DNA from: Natrinema halophilum
GTDB lineage: Archaea; Halobacteriota; Halobacteria; Halobacteriales; Natrialbaceae
Direction: 5' to 3'
Length of the DNA stretch: 64,000 nucleotides
Assembly (NCBI RefSeq): GCF_013402815.2
Contig: NZ_CP058601.1
Location: 1,860,001-1,924,000 of the forward strand
Both the position numbers and the translations under genes were made by a program. The notes beneath the pieces are model-generated. The model was not told the DNA's origin, searched no databases, and saw only the letters and a program-made list of their open reading frames with translations. Below are positions 2,212 to 9,849 of this stretch, piece by piece; position 1 is the first letter of the stretch; every line of letters begins with the position of its first letter.

Positions 2212-2243
2212 TCGTAAACCTAGATCAAAACTTCGGTTTCCGA
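2212..2243. promoter_or_regulatory. Putative BirA operator upstream of bioY
   Basis: Inverted repeat with half-sites TCTCGTAAACC and GGTTTCCGAGC separated by 14 bp. One arm matches the reverse complement of the other at 9 of 11 positions. The GTAAACC/GGTTT cores and 14-bp spacing match the published BirA-box pattern (TTGTAAACC-N14-16-GGTTTACAA) of bacteria and archaea. It lies where the bioY core promoter should be, so binding would block TBP/TFB or the polymerase. A BirA with an HTH domain is encoded at 8911-9849. Confidence 0.75.
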
Positions 2244-2642
2244 GCTTACGAGTAATCTCGATTACACTAATAGCGGAACGGGGCGTTCCCGTCGAAACCA
2301 GAGTTTACGGCGAAACAGGATGCTTCCTCTCAGTTTCAGTGACGGTTTCAACCGGGATTCGACATATCGAAACCGAAAGCAATTGCGTTCCGAACGGACG
2401 TCTGTCCGCGTCTCGTGATCGACCGGTGACGGTAATATCCGGTTGTATCGCTTCGCTAATTGGAACGACCGGCGGTCTTATGCGTTACTTCGGTCCCCTG
2501 ATGAAAAAATGCGAACCAGTAGTACGCGGGCTGACGGACGGGAGATATACGAGTCGAAATCGATACACCGTCGGAGGGGTGTTCGGATCGGGATTCGAGT
2601 TCCGACCGAGCGAACGCCGAGGCGGGAACGCGAGGACGAACG
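2244..2642. other. Divergent intergenic region, bioY / large secreted protein
   Basis: About 400 bp between the BirA-like box and the ATG of the 1489-residue protein. Frames here lack conserved features. AT-richer stretches near 2450-2510 could hold the plus-strand promoter, but no single TATA box stands out. Confidence 0.4.
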
Positions 2643-5600
2643 ATGAGCCGACGCCCGACGTTGACTGTCCTTTCTGTCGTGCTTATCGCAGCTGTCGTGG
2701 TCGGGAGCATCATTGTGCTGCCGATCCTCGGCGACGACGGACCGGTCGCCGCGGCGGATGCCGGGACCGATGAAATCGGGGACGGCTCGTCGCCCAAAGG
2801 ACCCACACAGGCCGCGCTCGAGACGGTCGTCGCTCAGCAGGACGACCGGCAGACCGAGTGGTCCGAATTCGATCCGGTGACGTTCGAGTCGCCGACGGCG
2901 GCGGATCAAAGCGCAAACGAACGGGGCACGACTCAGGGTGATCCTGCCGACGCCCTCGAAGCCGGCGTCGAGGAAGGAATCGAACTCGTTCAATCCCAGG
3001 GACTGAACGTCACGCAAGACCAGCGCGCGGCGGCCCTCGAGGGTGCTCGCGCGTCGGTGTCACAGTATCAGAACGCGGACTCCGAGCAGGTACGGGCGGC
3101 GACGGCTGGGGCCGTCCACGGCGCGTTGATTCAGAAACAATCGGCGAACGTGACCCAGATTCAGCACGCGGTCGCCGGTGCGACCGGCGGCGGGCTTTCC
3201 CAGTCCCAGTCGGTCAACGCCACGCAACTCCAGAGCGCAGCGTGGGGTGGGGCTCACGGCGCGATCGCCCAGAGTCAGAACGTCTCCGTCGAACAGATTC
3301 AGGTCGCGAGCAGCGGTGCGGCCGCGGGGGCCGCAAACGAGGCCGGCGCGAAAGACGTCGGCTCGGTGGCGAAAATACAGGAAGCCGCCCAGGGATCGGC
3401 CTACGGCGCCCTGACCCAGTACCAGTCGATTTCGGTCGAACAGCGCCAGCGGGTGACCATAGAGCACGTCCGACACGCCGCTGCGGGTGCCGCCGCCGGC
3501 GCGCTCGAGGGAAGTACGTCTGCGGGTCTCGAACAGATGCAGCGGAGCGACGTCCGACAGGAACAGCAAATCGACGTCGAGCAGCGCCAGCGAGTGACGA
3601 TCAAGCAAATCCAGAAGGCTGCGGCCGGAGCAGCGAAAGGTGCGCTCGTCCAGGAGCAGACCGTTTCGGTCGAGCAGACTCAGGCCGCGGCCCGCGGAGC
3701 GAGCAGGGGTTCGCTCACGCAGATACAGGGCGTTCGCATCGAGCAGGTCCAGCGGATCTCGATCACGCAGGTACAGGAGGCGTCCGTCGGCGCGGCGACG
3801 GGGGCGATTTCTCAGAGCCAGGACGCAACCGTCGAGCAGATTCAGGCCGCTGCGACCGGAAGCGCGGGCGGTGTGCTGGTCCAGCGCCAGGAAATTTCGA
3901 TCACGCAGAGACAGTACGCGGCGATCGGAGCGGCCGAAGGGGCGATTTCATCCGCCTTCCAGCGGCAGTCGGTGACGGTCGAACAGATCCAGGCCGCCGC
4001 GTTCGGTGCCGGTGACGGGTCGGTGAGCCAGGCCCAGGTCGTCCAGATAACCCAGGTCCAGCACCTCGCACGTGGCGCTGCGAGCGGTGCCCTCTCTCAG
4101 ACGCAGGCGGCGACGGTGACACAAATTCAGGCGGTTGCGCGAGTCACCGCTCAGGAGACGGCTCACGTCGTCCAGTCCCAGCGGATCAGCATCACGCAAC
4201 TACAGACCCTGACCGAAGAAACCGCGTCGGAAACGATCGCCTATGTCGTCCAGGAAGACACCGAGGACGTGACGGAGATCACCCAGCAGGTCGAGGTCAC
4301 CGTCGTCCAGCGACTCGAGACGATCGACCGGATTGAGGGGACAGCGTCGATCGACGTTCCCGACCAGCAGTCCGACGGGGAGCGAATCACCGTCGAAGAC
4401 GTTTCGCTCTCCGAGGGCGGGTACGTGGCCGTCTACGATGGAGTCGCGGTCGATGCCGATCCCGCCGATATCGTCGGCGTCTCGAGGTACCTCGAGGACG
4501 GTTCGTACGAGAACGTCACGATCGAACTCGACGACTCGCTCGCTTCGAGCGGGGCGATCGTCGCGGTCGCACACCACGAGACGACCGGCGACGAAACGTT
4601 CCAGTACGTCGATTCGGACGGCGAGGAGGACGTTCCGTACGTCACCGGCGCAGGGGCGCCGGTCCTCGACGGTGCGTTCCTGACGGTTGCGGACGACACT
4701 CGCGACGCCACGGCGACGCTATCGGTTTCCGACCAGACCGGCAACGGATCGGCGCTAACGGTCGACGAAGCGAACGCATCCGTTCCGTACACCGTGGCCG
4801 CGACCGTCGACGGCGAATCGATCGGAAGCGAATCGTTCTCGGCCGGCGAACTCGTGACGAATCTCTCGCTCGGCCTCGAGCCGGCCCTCGAGGAGAACGC
4901 AACCGTCGACGTTTCGATCGTCGGCGAGGACGGCGCGACGCTCGTGAACGAGACGATCACGTACAGCGTCGTGGAGGACGGACCCGAGGGTTCGATCTCG
5001 GTCGACGACCAGACGGGAGACGGTGAGACGCTCGAGGTCGATGCCGCGAGCGCGTCGGTCCCGTACGTGATTTCCGCTGCGTACGGCGACGAGCGGGTCG
5101 ATAGCGACCAGTTCGAAGCGAATACCACGATTACTGACGAGGAACTCGAGTTGGATCCGCCGCTCGAGGAGAACGCGACCGTCGACGTCTCCGTTCGCGC
5201 CGTGGCTGACGACGCAGTGCTGGCGAACGAATCGGTCGAGTACGGGATAGTACAACGGGGGTCGGACCGGCCGACGGCGAACCTCACGGTCGCCGATCAA
5301 ACGGGCGACGGCGAGACGCTCACCGTCACTCAGGCGAACGCGTCCGTCGAGTACGCACTCACCGTTACCGACGAGAACGGCACGCAGCGAACGACGAGCG
5401 ACACGTTCAATGCGAACGCGACGATCGGACCCGAGGAGTTCCCCCTCGATCCGCCGCTCGAGGAGAATTCGACGCTCGAAGTGGCGGTCGTCGACGTAGA
5501 GAACGACACCATCCTCGAAACGGATACCGTCGAGTATACGGTCGATGGAGCGCTCGAGGAGTTCGCAGTGGAATTCGCGAGCTGTTCGCGGGCGGAGGTC

Positions 5601-7112
5601 ACCGCGTCGCTCGAGGCAGGCGATCAGGTCGCCGCGAGCACGGGATTTTACACGACCGGCGGCTTCGGAAACACGATTCTGGACGATCTGATTACGGTCG
5701 GCGAAGACGTCCCGGCGCCGTTTAACGGTACGATCGTCTTCGAGATCGGCGACGAGCGCAGCGTCACGACCGAGGGAGACCGCGTGACGGTCGAGGTGCC
5801 GGATTACGGTACCTTCGGCACGTACATCTCCGGGATCAGCTCGCCTCAAGCGGCTCCATTCGGCGGGATAGACTTCCCGAACCCGTCGGAAACGTGTCGA
5901 GATGAGGTGCGGCCGGACCGGCCCTCGCTCTCCGTCGTCGAAACGATGCCGGTCGGTGACGGGAACGCCATAGACGTAACGTTCGGGTACGAGAACCCGA
6001 ACGACGCCCCGGTGGCTGCAAACAGTGCGTTCGTCGAGGGAACGACGGCCGACCGACCGCCGAGCGAACTCGAATCCGGCCAGCAGACGTTCACCGTCGA
6101 GTGGGCGCCCGAGAGTGACAGCGAACGTCTCGTCTGGCAGGTCGACCTCTCGAACTTCGGCTACGACGAGCCGCTGACCGCCGAAACGCCGCCCGCGGGC
6201 GAGATCGAACCGTCCCAGCCGGCCGCCTTCGACGTTTCGATAACGGGGACGAACAGCCCGGTCGAACAAGGCGACCCCATCGCGGTCGACGCCGAACTCG
6301 AAAACGTCGGCGACGAAGCCGGCAGCCAGAATGTCTCGATCGCCGTCGACGGGACCATCGGCAACGCCACCTCGGTGTCGCTCGAGCCCGGCGAAACCCG
6401 GACGGTCACGCTACGGGACGGGACGACGGATCTCGAACCCGGCGAGTACCCGGTCGAAGTTTCGACCGCGAACGAGACGGCGGAGACGACGGTTACCGTC
6501 GAGCCGGCGGGTGAACCAGCCGCGTTCGCGATCGCCGACGTGTCGGCACCCGAAACAGGATTGCCTGGCGAGCAAGTAACGGTGAACGCGACGATCGAGA
6601 ATCGAGGCGATCTCGAGGGAACGCAGACGGTTACCTACAGTATCGACGGCCAACTGGCCGCCGAGGAATCGGTAACGCTCGCTGGCGGGCAAGCGACGAC
6701 GCTTTCGTTTTCCACCGATCTTCCGCCAGGAACGTCGACTCACACGATCGCGACTGACGACGATCAGACGTCGGTGACCATCGAGACAACCGTGCCGGTC
6801 TCGAACGAAGAGACGGAACCGGAAGCACCGACCGAACCGGAACAACCAGACGAGCCGACCGAACCCGAGCAACCAGACACTCCGGCCGAACCCGAGCAAC
6901 CAGACGAGCCGACCGAACCCGAGCAGCCAGACACTCCGGCCGAACCGGAACAACCAGACGAGCCGACCGAACCCGAGCAGCCAGACACTCCGGCCGAACC
7001 CGAGCAACCAGAAACGCCCGCCGATGACGATGGTGCGGCTGGTGAGGAAGAAACCGCTGTCGACGGAAACGCAACCGCGGATACTGAGAACGACACTGCC
7101 GGTGCGGGCTAA
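2643..7112 (+). CDS. Giant secreted repeat protein: Q-rich 23-residue repeats, DUF7282-like and CARDB-like domains
   Basis: A 1489-residue acidic surface or secreted protein. A hydrophobic N-terminal segment (about 8-29) would be a signal or signal anchor. Residues about 95-540 carry roughly 16 copies of a 23-residue Gln/Ala/Gly repeat of the type SQSQxVxVxQIQxAAxGAAxGA. About 565-680 resembles haloarchaeal DUF7282. Three related beta units start near 690, 784 and 880, each with a DQTGxGxxLTV motif. Two CARDB-like domains start near 1194 and 1293. A Pro/Glu tail (about 1396-1459) repeats EPEQPDEPTEPEQPDTPA. Many NxS/T sequons could be N-glycosylated. No PGF-CTERM or C-terminal membrane helix is seen, so it is either released or held by its N-terminus. 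The molecular role is unknown; adhesion or cell-wall function is inference. Confidence 0.85.
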   Translation: MSRRPTLTVLSVVLIAAVVVGSIIVLPILGDDGPVAAADAGTDEIGDGSSPKGPTQAALETVVAQQDDRQTEWSEFDPVTFESPTAADQSANERGTTQGDPADALEAGVEEGIELVQSQGLNVTQDQRAAALEGARASVSQYQNADSEQVRAATAGAVHGALIQKQSANVTQIQHAVAGATGGGLSQSQSVNATQLQSAAWGGAHGAIAQSQNVSVEQIQVASSGAAAGAANEAGAKDVGSVAKIQEAAQGSAYGALTQYQSISVEQRQRVTIEHVRHAAAGAAAGALEGSTSAGLEQMQRSDVRQEQQIDVEQRQRVTIKQIQKAAAGAAKGALVQEQTVSVEQTQAAARGASRGSLTQIQGVRIEQVQRISITQVQEASVGAATGAISQSQDATVEQIQAAATGSAGGVLVQRQEISITQRQYAAIGAAEGAISSAFQRQSVTVEQIQAAAFGAGDGSVSQAQVVQITQVQHLARGAASGALSQTQAATVTQIQAVARVTAQETAHVVQSQRISITQLQTLTEETASETIAYVVQEDTEDVTEITQQVEVTVVQRLETIDRIEGTASIDVPDQQSDGERITVEDVSLSEGGYVAVYDGVAVDADPADIVGVSRYLEDGSYENVTIELDDSLASSGAIVAVAHHETTGDETFQYVDSDGEEDVPYVTGAGAPVLDGAFLTVADDTRDATATLSVSDQTGNGSALTVDEANASVPYTVAATVDGESIGSESFSAGELVTNLSLGLEPALEENATVDVSIVGEDGATLVNETITYSVVEDGPEGSISVDDQTGDGETLEVDAASASVPYVISAAYGDERVDSDQFEANTTITDEELELDPPLEENATVDVSVRAVADDAVLANESVEYGIVQRGSDRPTANLTVADQTGDGETLTVTQANASVEYALTVTDENGTQRTTSDTFNANATIGPEEFPLDPPLEENSTLEVAVVDVENDTILETDTVEYTVDGALEEFAVEFASCSRAEVTASLEAGDQVAASTGFYTTGGFGNTILDDLITVGEDVPAPFNGTIVFEIGDERSVTTEGDRVTVEVPDYGTFGTYISGISSPQAAPFGGIDFPNPSETCRDEVRPDRPSLSVVETMPVGDGNAIDVTFGYENPNDAPVAANSAFVEGTTADRPPSELESGQQTFTVEWAPESDSERLVWQVDLSNFGYDEPLTAETPPAGEIEPSQPAAFDVSITGTNSPVEQGDPIAVDAELENVGDEAGSQNVSIAVDGTIGNATSVSLEPGETRTVTLRDGTTDLEPGEYPVEVSTANETAETTVTVEPAGEPAAFAIADVSAPETGLPGEQVTVNATIENRGDLEGTQTVTYSIDGQLAAEESVTLAGGQATTLSFSTDLPPGTSTHTIATDDDQTSVTIETTVPVSNEETEPEAPTEPEQPDEPTEPEQPDTPAEPEQPDEPTEPEQPDTPAEPEQPDEPTEPEQPDTPAEPEQPETPADDDGAAGEEETAVDGNATADTENDTAGAG
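6829..7020 (+). repeat. 54-bp tandem repeat encoding the Pro/Glu tail
   Basis: About three and a half copies of an 18-codon unit (two 9-codon halves) encoding alternating EPEQPDEPT and EPEQPDTPA. The unit is a multiple of three, so copy changes keep the frame. Synonymous differences (gaaccggaa versus gaacccgag) distinguish copies. Confidence 0.85.
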
Positions 7113-8910: not shown

Positions 8911-9849
8911 TTAGACCGGTCGAAGGTGTTCGCAATCCCCCGCCGACACGGTTACCCGTTCGTCGTCGGTCTCGACCACGAGCGCCCCGGATTCAGTGAC
9001 GTCGATCGCATCCCCGACGACCTCGCCGGCCGGCCGATCGACCCGAACGTGCTGGCCCAGCGTCAGCGCTAGCTCGCGCCAGGTCGGAACAACGGTGTCG
9101 AGGTCGGTTCGGTAGCGATCGTACTCCTCGAGCAGTCGCTGGACGAAGCGTCGACGGTCGACGTCCCCTGCCTCGTCTCGGATGCTAGTCGCGCCTTCGG
9201 GAAGCTCCTCAGCGTCGAGGTTTGCGTTGACTCCGATGCCCGCAATGAGCCAATCCACCCGATCTGGCTGGCCTTCCATTTCCGTGAGGATACCCGCAAG
9301 CTTCCGGTACGCGCCGTCGTCGCCAACCGGGACGACCACGTCGTTGGGCCACTTGATTCGCGCGTCGACGCCAGCCTCTCGAGCGGTCGTCGCCGTCGCG
9401 ACCGCCGCTGCGAGCGTGTACAGCGGCGCCTGTGCGGGCGTGATCGACGGACGGGTGACGACGCTCACCCAGACGCCACCTGCGGGCGCGGACCACTCTC
9501 GCTCGAGACGGCCTTTCCCGCCGGTCTGTTCGTCCGCGAGGACTGCAACATCGGCGCCACCCTCGGCCGCCAGCTCCCGCGCGCGATCGTTCGTGCTTCC
9601 CACGGAGTCGTGATAGTCGATCGAAAACGGAGCCTCGAGACCGAATTCGACCGCCGGAGCATTGTACGCCGCGACGTCGGCGAGTTCGTAGCCGTTCGGT
9701 CCACTCTCGATCTCGAAATCCGCATCACGAAGCGCCTCGATGTGCTTCCAGACGGCTGCCCGCGAGATGTCGAAGTCGTCGGCTAACGCCGGCCCGGAGA
9801 CCGGTCCGCCGGCTATCGCCTCGAGGATAGCGCGTCGCGTCTCGTTCAT
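8911..9849 (-). CDS. birA: Bifunctional biotin protein ligase / transcriptional repressor BirA
   Basis: Activates biotin with ATP and transfers it to the carboxylase biotin carrier; with its N-terminal winged helix it also acts as a DNA-binding repressor. The 312 residues start at MNETRRAILEAIAG, with an HTH (about 18-45, ALADDFDISRAAVWKHIEALR). The catalytic domain follows, with GSTNDRARELA, the ligase loop GGKGRLEREW (GRGRxGRxW-type) and KWPNDVVV. An SH3-like C-terminal domain completes it. A matching operator lies before bioY (2212-2243). Confidence 0.94.
   Translation of the reverse strand: MNETRRAILEAIAGGPVSGPALADDFDISRAAVWKHIEALRDADFEIESGPNGYELADVAAYNAPAVEFGLEAPFSIDYHDSVGSTNDRARELAAEGGADVAVLADEQTGGKGRLEREWSAPAGGVWVSVVTRPSITPAQAPLYTLAAAVATATTAREAGVDARIKWPNDVVVPVGDDGAYRKLAGILTEMEGQPDRVDWLIAGIGVNANLDAEELPEGATSIRDEAGDVDRRRFVQRLLEEYDRYRTDLDTVVPTWRELALTLGQHVRVDRPAGEVVGDAIDVTESGALVVETDDERVTVSAGDCEHLRPV

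Follow-up and report, generated by a model that had tools for sequence, protein, structure and literature searches.

BirA signals were reportedly proposed in both bacteria and archaea by Rodionov, Mironov and Gelfand in 2002, and the type of switch described below is already known; worked out here are its spread among haloarchaea and its fit to their promoters, a lineage-specific placement of the known BirA box. The consensus attributed to Rodionov et al. 2002 is TTGTAAACC-[N14/15]-GGTTTACAA (PMC545781), and BirA has been proposed to be a very ancient regulator, as its signal is apparently common to bacteria and archaea (PMC3199775). BioYMN of Natrialba magadii has been described with Rodionov 2002 cited, and no operator is named among the available passages of that paper (PMC3403918). 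In the literature, represented mainly by titles and abstract openings, no haloarchaeal BirA operator was found; titles and abstract openings, a set in which subscription papers are mostly not included, likewise yielded no experiment on archaeal BirA as a repressor.

The window (the whole 64,000-nucleotide stretch of the Natrinema halophilum genome that was analyzed) carries three adjoining genes on the minus strand whose PF02632, ABC_tran, and CbiQ domains together identify a BioYMN transporter. These are bioY, encoding the substrate-binding subunit of the biotin ECF transporter (1612 to 2199; PF02632, 137 bits; no match to the NCBIfam models), a bioM-like ECF ATPase gene (895 to 1599; ABC_tran, 110 bits), for which the top NCBIfam matches were ECF ATPases that all fell under the cut-off, and a bioN-like gene for the ECF transmembrane subunit of the CbiQ family (132 to 836; PF02361, 59 bits; TIGR02454 under the cut-off). 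The initial annotation had placed a BirA with a helix-turn-helix (HTH) domain at 8911 to 9849, and this was borne out: the 312-amino-acid product of this minus-strand gene, a biotin protein ligase and the predicted regulator, has an N-terminal winged HTH (HTH_11 at residues 5 to 54, 39.8 bits against a Pfam cut-off of 25). BPL_LplA_LipB and BPL_C were also above the Pfam cut-off, as was the TIGR00121 ligase model above its own, while the TIGR00122 repressor-domain model (42.7 bits against 70) and the full-length BirA NCBIfam models were under theirs. The protein has the winged HTH, ligase, and C-terminal domains of a group II biotin protein ligase, in the same order as BirA of E. coli, B. subtilis, and S. 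aureus, and it aligned with E. coli BirA (1bia; E = 3.8e-21, residues 11 to 295) and with the S. aureus protein (3v7c; E = 3.3e-26). It differs from the bacterial repressor-ligases in that its target here would be an archaeal TBP/TFB promoter.

Upstream of bioY, the plus strand at 2212 to 2243 reads TCGTAAACC-TAGATCAAAACTTC-GGTTTCCGA. The core of this palindrome (2214 to 2241) is GTAAACC-N14-GGTTTCC, which differs from GTAAACC-N14-GGTTTAC at one of 14 half-site positions and has a spacer of 14; outer letters TCG...CGA extend the predicted operator to 2212 to 2243. Read on the minus strand towards bioY, the predicted BirA operator core is GGAAACC-GAAGTTTTGATCTA-GGTTTAC. Its distal half-site, GGAAACC (2235 to 2241; -42 to -36 from the bioY ATG), was present at all six same-genus loci examined, the window included, and its proximal half-site, GGTTTAC, lies at 2214 to 2220 (-21 to -15). 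The separation of 14 bp between the half-sites agreed with the initial annotation; the distance to bioY, given there as 13 bp, was found to be 14 bp from the core and 12 bp from the extended palindrome to the ATG at 2199. The pattern GTAAACCN{13,16}GGTTTMC occurred once in the window, and the palindrome before bioY was also the sole match in the window at three or fewer mismatches to GTAAACC-N14-GGTTTAC. The E. coli bio operator is divergent, an arrangement not seen in the window, whose box serves only bioY. The open reading frame (ORF) divergent from bioY (2643 to 7112, plus strand, 1,489 amino acids) contains repeats rich in Q, with a PEQPDEPTEPEQPDTP-type repeat at the C terminus, and, judging by the impression given by its translation, probably encodes a surface protein.

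The box shares with that of Rodionov the half-sites GTAAACC/GTCAACC and GGTTTAC/GGTTGAC, the spacer of 14, and its placement ahead of bioY and bioB operons in genomes whose BirA bears an HTH; it differs in its outer letters, which in haloarchaea are mostly TCG...CGA rather than TTG...CAA. Of 391 Halobacteria genomes, 369 contained BioY and 378 gave a match to BirA. To follow the motif before bioY in other haloarchaea, as had been proposed, the upstream DNA was read in 141 genomes (the window's own plus sets of 30, 30, and 80 loci), a nonrandom sample selected for spread across families and genera and for the inclusion of genomes with an HTH-less BirA. With spacers of 11 to 18 allowed, the best match had three or fewer mismatches at 131 of the 141 loci, and 130 sites were accepted after rejection of that in genome G128 (three mismatches, 12-bp spacer), which was counted as absent along with that in G117 (four mismatches at the usual place). 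Spacers were 14 bp in 127 of the accepted sites and 13 bp in the other three, and 103 of the 128 spacer-14 sites with enough flank had an in-frame ATG or GTG 14 or 15 bp downstream. With the spacer fixed at 14, sites with three or fewer mismatches were found in 128 of 141 real upstream regions versus 14 of 2,820 shuffled ones. As a negative control, the 300 bp upstream of birA at 30 loci of the window's family contained no spacer-14 site with three or fewer mismatches in any case. Autoregulation of birA was rejected, the best upstream match across these 30 loci having four mismatches. Outside the Halobacteria, bioY loci were read at 40 of the 74 genomes with BioY from other classes of the phylum, and 31 of the 40 had a box with three or fewer mismatches and a spacer of 13 to 16.

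If the palindrome is the target of BirA, the motif is expected where BirA retains its HTH. HTH status was assigned by alignment to the window BirA, with all 46 genomes that gave a weak first match searched again. The alignment began at residue 14 or earlier in 135 of the 141 genomes, which were taken as HTH bearing, and at residues 43 to 59 in five, belonging to genera g64 (G124, G174, and G346) and g83 (G318 and G360); in G317 only a birA fragment was matched, and this genome was excluded from the comparison. A Pfam scan of four of the five HTH-less proteins identified the ligase domains and no HTH; the fifth, from G346, was outside both the scan and the tree described below and is classed as HTH-less by alignment. 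The expected relationship was observed, as the bioY site was present in 129 of the 135 HTH-bearing genomes and in none of the five HTH-less ones. Fisher's test gives P = 1e-6 for this association, a value that is overstated given that the HTH-less genomes represent two independent events. These appear as two separate HTH losses on well-supported branches in a 65-row tree of the ligase domain, which contained four of the five HTH-less genomes and omitted G286, whose frame is short, along with 24 of 30 same-family rows. The tree neighbors, G121 for g64 and G017 and G061 for g83, have bioY sites with one (spacer 13), zero, and zero mismatches, respectively.

Genome-wide, the strict pattern GTMAACY-N14-RGTTKAC was present in 62 of 72 genomes, compared with 1 of 72 for the reversed control, and was absent from all five HTH-less genomes. 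The other five genomes without it were G002, which has neither BioY nor BirA, G050, which has no BioY and only a weak match to the HTH, G003, G021, and G128. Allowing one mismatch in 15 exception genomes produced chance matches both with the reversed control, which in G129 outnumbered the forward pattern by 10 to 4, and in the HTH-less genomes G174 and G318, so the looser scan is uninformative on the HTH-less genomes. Six of the 135 HTH-bearing genomes lacked a good bioY site. G044 and G117 retain the box at the start of bioB (the strict sites in G117 and G325 precede the bioB match by exactly 19 bp), the strict box of G136 and G261 has flanks resembling a bioB start, G128 has neither a strict site nor a bioB match, and the G390 assembly is 82% complete, with birA truncated at a contig edge. 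G136 and G261 belong to genus g67, in which bioY has a distinct N terminus and no box while BirA keeps its HTH; bioY of this genus is perhaps a replaced gene. With these six exceptions, the presence of the box tracks HTH-bearing BirA. From its format, placement, and co-occurrence with the HTH, the palindrome is very probably a BirA operator, with binding predicted.

The initial annotation had also placed the operator over the bioY promoter. In H. volcanii, the BRE lies at -34/-33 and TATA at -29 to -25, with a pyrimidine at -1 where the starts of transcription and translation coincide (PMC3986360). At these distances from the bioY ATG, within the spacer of the box, the window has a BRE-like AA (2232 to 2233, minus strand) and a TATA-like TTGAT (2224 to 2228, minus strand). 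The 45 bioY loci with a gap of 14 bp between box and start codon, the window among them, had A at 64% and 84% at -34/-33 and a TTNAW run at -29 to -25; at the 58 loci with a 15-bp gap, the A pair and TTNAW were one base further out, the TATA-like letters being at -30 to -26. TTNAW was found at its fixed place in the spacer at 67 of 131 bioY loci, and the stronger TWTAWW in 7 of 131 spacers. Spacers of bioB sites, which have the same half-sites, do not show the TTNAW pattern. Half-sites enclosing BRE/TATA-like letters, a feature that sets the haloarchaeal bioY box apart from that of Rodionov, would fit an overlap with the promoter. The overlap is supported by the BRE- and TATA-like letters inside the spacer and is not proved by them, as they are weak and shift along with the box: since they are fixed relative to the box and not to the start codon, the AT-rich middle could be an operator preference.

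The proposal that other biotin genes of the genome would be preceded by the motif held for the bioB operon, where, outside the window, a one-mismatch site overlies the bioB start (G000:C1:720038-720065). The order behind the box is bioB-bioU-bioF-bioD, with bioB and bioD above their NCBIfam cut-offs and bioF and bioU strong matches under theirs; bioU aligned with Slr0355 in the PDB (E = 4e-85, residues 87 to 352). The bioU-like gene (L245:5846-6904, minus strand) lies between bioB and bioF, and no bioA-like gene is present in the four-gene run. Genes for bioB were detected in 180 of 391 genomes at an E value of 1e-60 or better. In the best 30 of these 180 loci, chosen without regard to the motif and all from the window's family, the box was at exactly -19 with two or fewer mismatches in every case. 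Among the matches listed, 23 further non-bioY sites were picked by the motif, and 19 of these were at bioB starts, with L260, L261, L263, and L264 as the other four. Three listed non-bioY sites were left out of the 23 (G282:C3:12404, G171:C1:2009, and G264:C1:2195539), the last of which lies, by its coordinates, 19 bp before a bioB match.

Across 49 bioB loci, 19 of them motif picked, the letters at -34/-33 were AA (92 and 96%) and those at -29 to -25 resembled TTATA, here outside the box. The box spans -19 to +9, and its proximal half-site overlaps codons 1 to 3, a further difference from the Rodionov box. Codon 2 was GTT in 49 of 49 loci, compared with 62 of 1,322 Val codons in the rest of the sequence read, a bias that points to selection on the DNA; a box doubling as the first three codons would mean that the operator constrains the start of the gene. 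The base preceding the start codon was C or T in all 49. The start codon itself was GTG in 47 of 49 (L245:6941-8047 and 48 other loci), and the distances to TATA and to the -1 pyrimidine predict a leaderless transcript from this GTG-type start. GUG is cited as nonfunctional in leaderless initiation (PMC3986360), so bioB may have a short leader or be an exception to this rule.

Taken together, these data led us to a likely account in which BirA bound to biotinyl-AMP would act at its operator as a repressor, excluding TBP/TFB at bioY and blocking polymerase at bioB. Repression of biotin uptake by biotinyl-AMP-bound BirA had been suggested at the outset and follows the E. coli paradigm by analogy; binding, dimerization, dependence on biotin, transcription start sites, and the direction of regulation are all elements that we infer. 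With ample biotin, BirA loaded with biotinyl-AMP would dimerize, as in E. coli, and occupy both half-sites. At bioYMN, where the leader would be absent or nearly so, BirA bound around the BRE/TATA-like element would keep TBP/TFB off. At bioB-bioU-bioF-bioD, where the box lies just past TATA (-19 to +9), it would block RNA polymerase. From the promoter geometry, this pairing of TBP/TFB exclusion at one promoter with a polymerase block at the other is probably correct. The two natural HTH losses with matching losses of the operator, together with the precise promoter geometry, make the idea of an ancient regulator testable in a genetically tractable archaeon.

BirA could instead act in another register, with bioY transcribed from the TATA-like CTATTAG that exists further upstream in the window (2267 to 2273) and BirA serving as a downstream roadblock. 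The weakness of the haloarchaeal spacer letters and their shift with the box would agree with this, as would the other classes of the phylum, in which TWTAWW was found within 20 bp upstream at 13 of 29 usable bioY boxes versus 0 of 131 in Halobacteria, a contrast that is suggestive only, as the genomes of these classes are AT-richer. The 20 bp upstream of the haloarchaeal box are, however, not AT-rich and contain TTNAW in only 3 of 131 cases, whereas the AT-rich run in the spacer is at, or one base off, the BRE and TATA distances of H. volcanii (PMC3986360); a start from CTATTAG is accordingly considered unlikely. Binding of the palindrome by a winged-HTH regulator other than BirA is more improbable still. 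Some genomes do have short stand-alone matches to the HTH of BirA (roughly residues 3 to 50), but the site disappeared twice independently where BirA is without its HTH, 19 of the 23 further sites are at bioB and two at a biotin carboxylase gene, and the letters of the site agree with the consensus published for BirA (PMC545781). The probability that the palindrome arose by chance is close to nil. Shuffled windows averaged 0.88 matches at three or fewer mismatches, and 55 of 100 had at least one, so that position and conservation carry the case for the palindrome; none of 100 dinucleotide shuffles contained the strict form, GTAAACCN{13,16}GGTTTMC, and chance is refuted by conservation, the site keeping a fixed distance in 130 of 141 genomes.

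Beyond bioY and bioB, the two sites before a biotin carboxylase gene (L260 and L263) raise a third placement. A relative of this gene was found in 77 of 81 family genomes, and in the best 30 of the 77 loci, seven (L295 to L301, from genera g15 and g25) had a box with two to four mismatches starting from -61 or -64 and followed about 10 bp downstream by an A-rich stretch. Two of the remaining 23 loci reached four mismatches at a different place, and the carboxylase gene of the window's own genome had no site, its best match having five mismatches. One operator type used in three registers, around BRE/TATA at bioY, over the start and first codons at bioB, and upstream of a promoter-like A-rich stretch of the carboxylase gene with BirA as a possible activator, is a doubtful proposition. 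If true in the two genera, carboxylase would be made when biotin is plentiful, while uptake and synthesis are shut off. In the window's own genome, a scan at two mismatches gave 21 forward and 18 reverse matches, and its reversed control 7 and 9; such matches are therefore mostly due to chance. Matches with one mismatch or fewer were found at four places, namely bioY, bioB, and loci L003 and L004. The latter two, which are inside predicted ORFs, were dismissed. Another input on bioB, bioF, and bioD is on record, since an Lsm mutant of Haloferax mediterranei showed reduced expression of these genes under nitrogen starvation (PMC10779274). In family f11, a strict box (L264:3001-3028) overlaps the beginning of an ORF resembling aldehyde dehydrogenase, which is preceded in the same orientation by one resembling glutamine synthetase.
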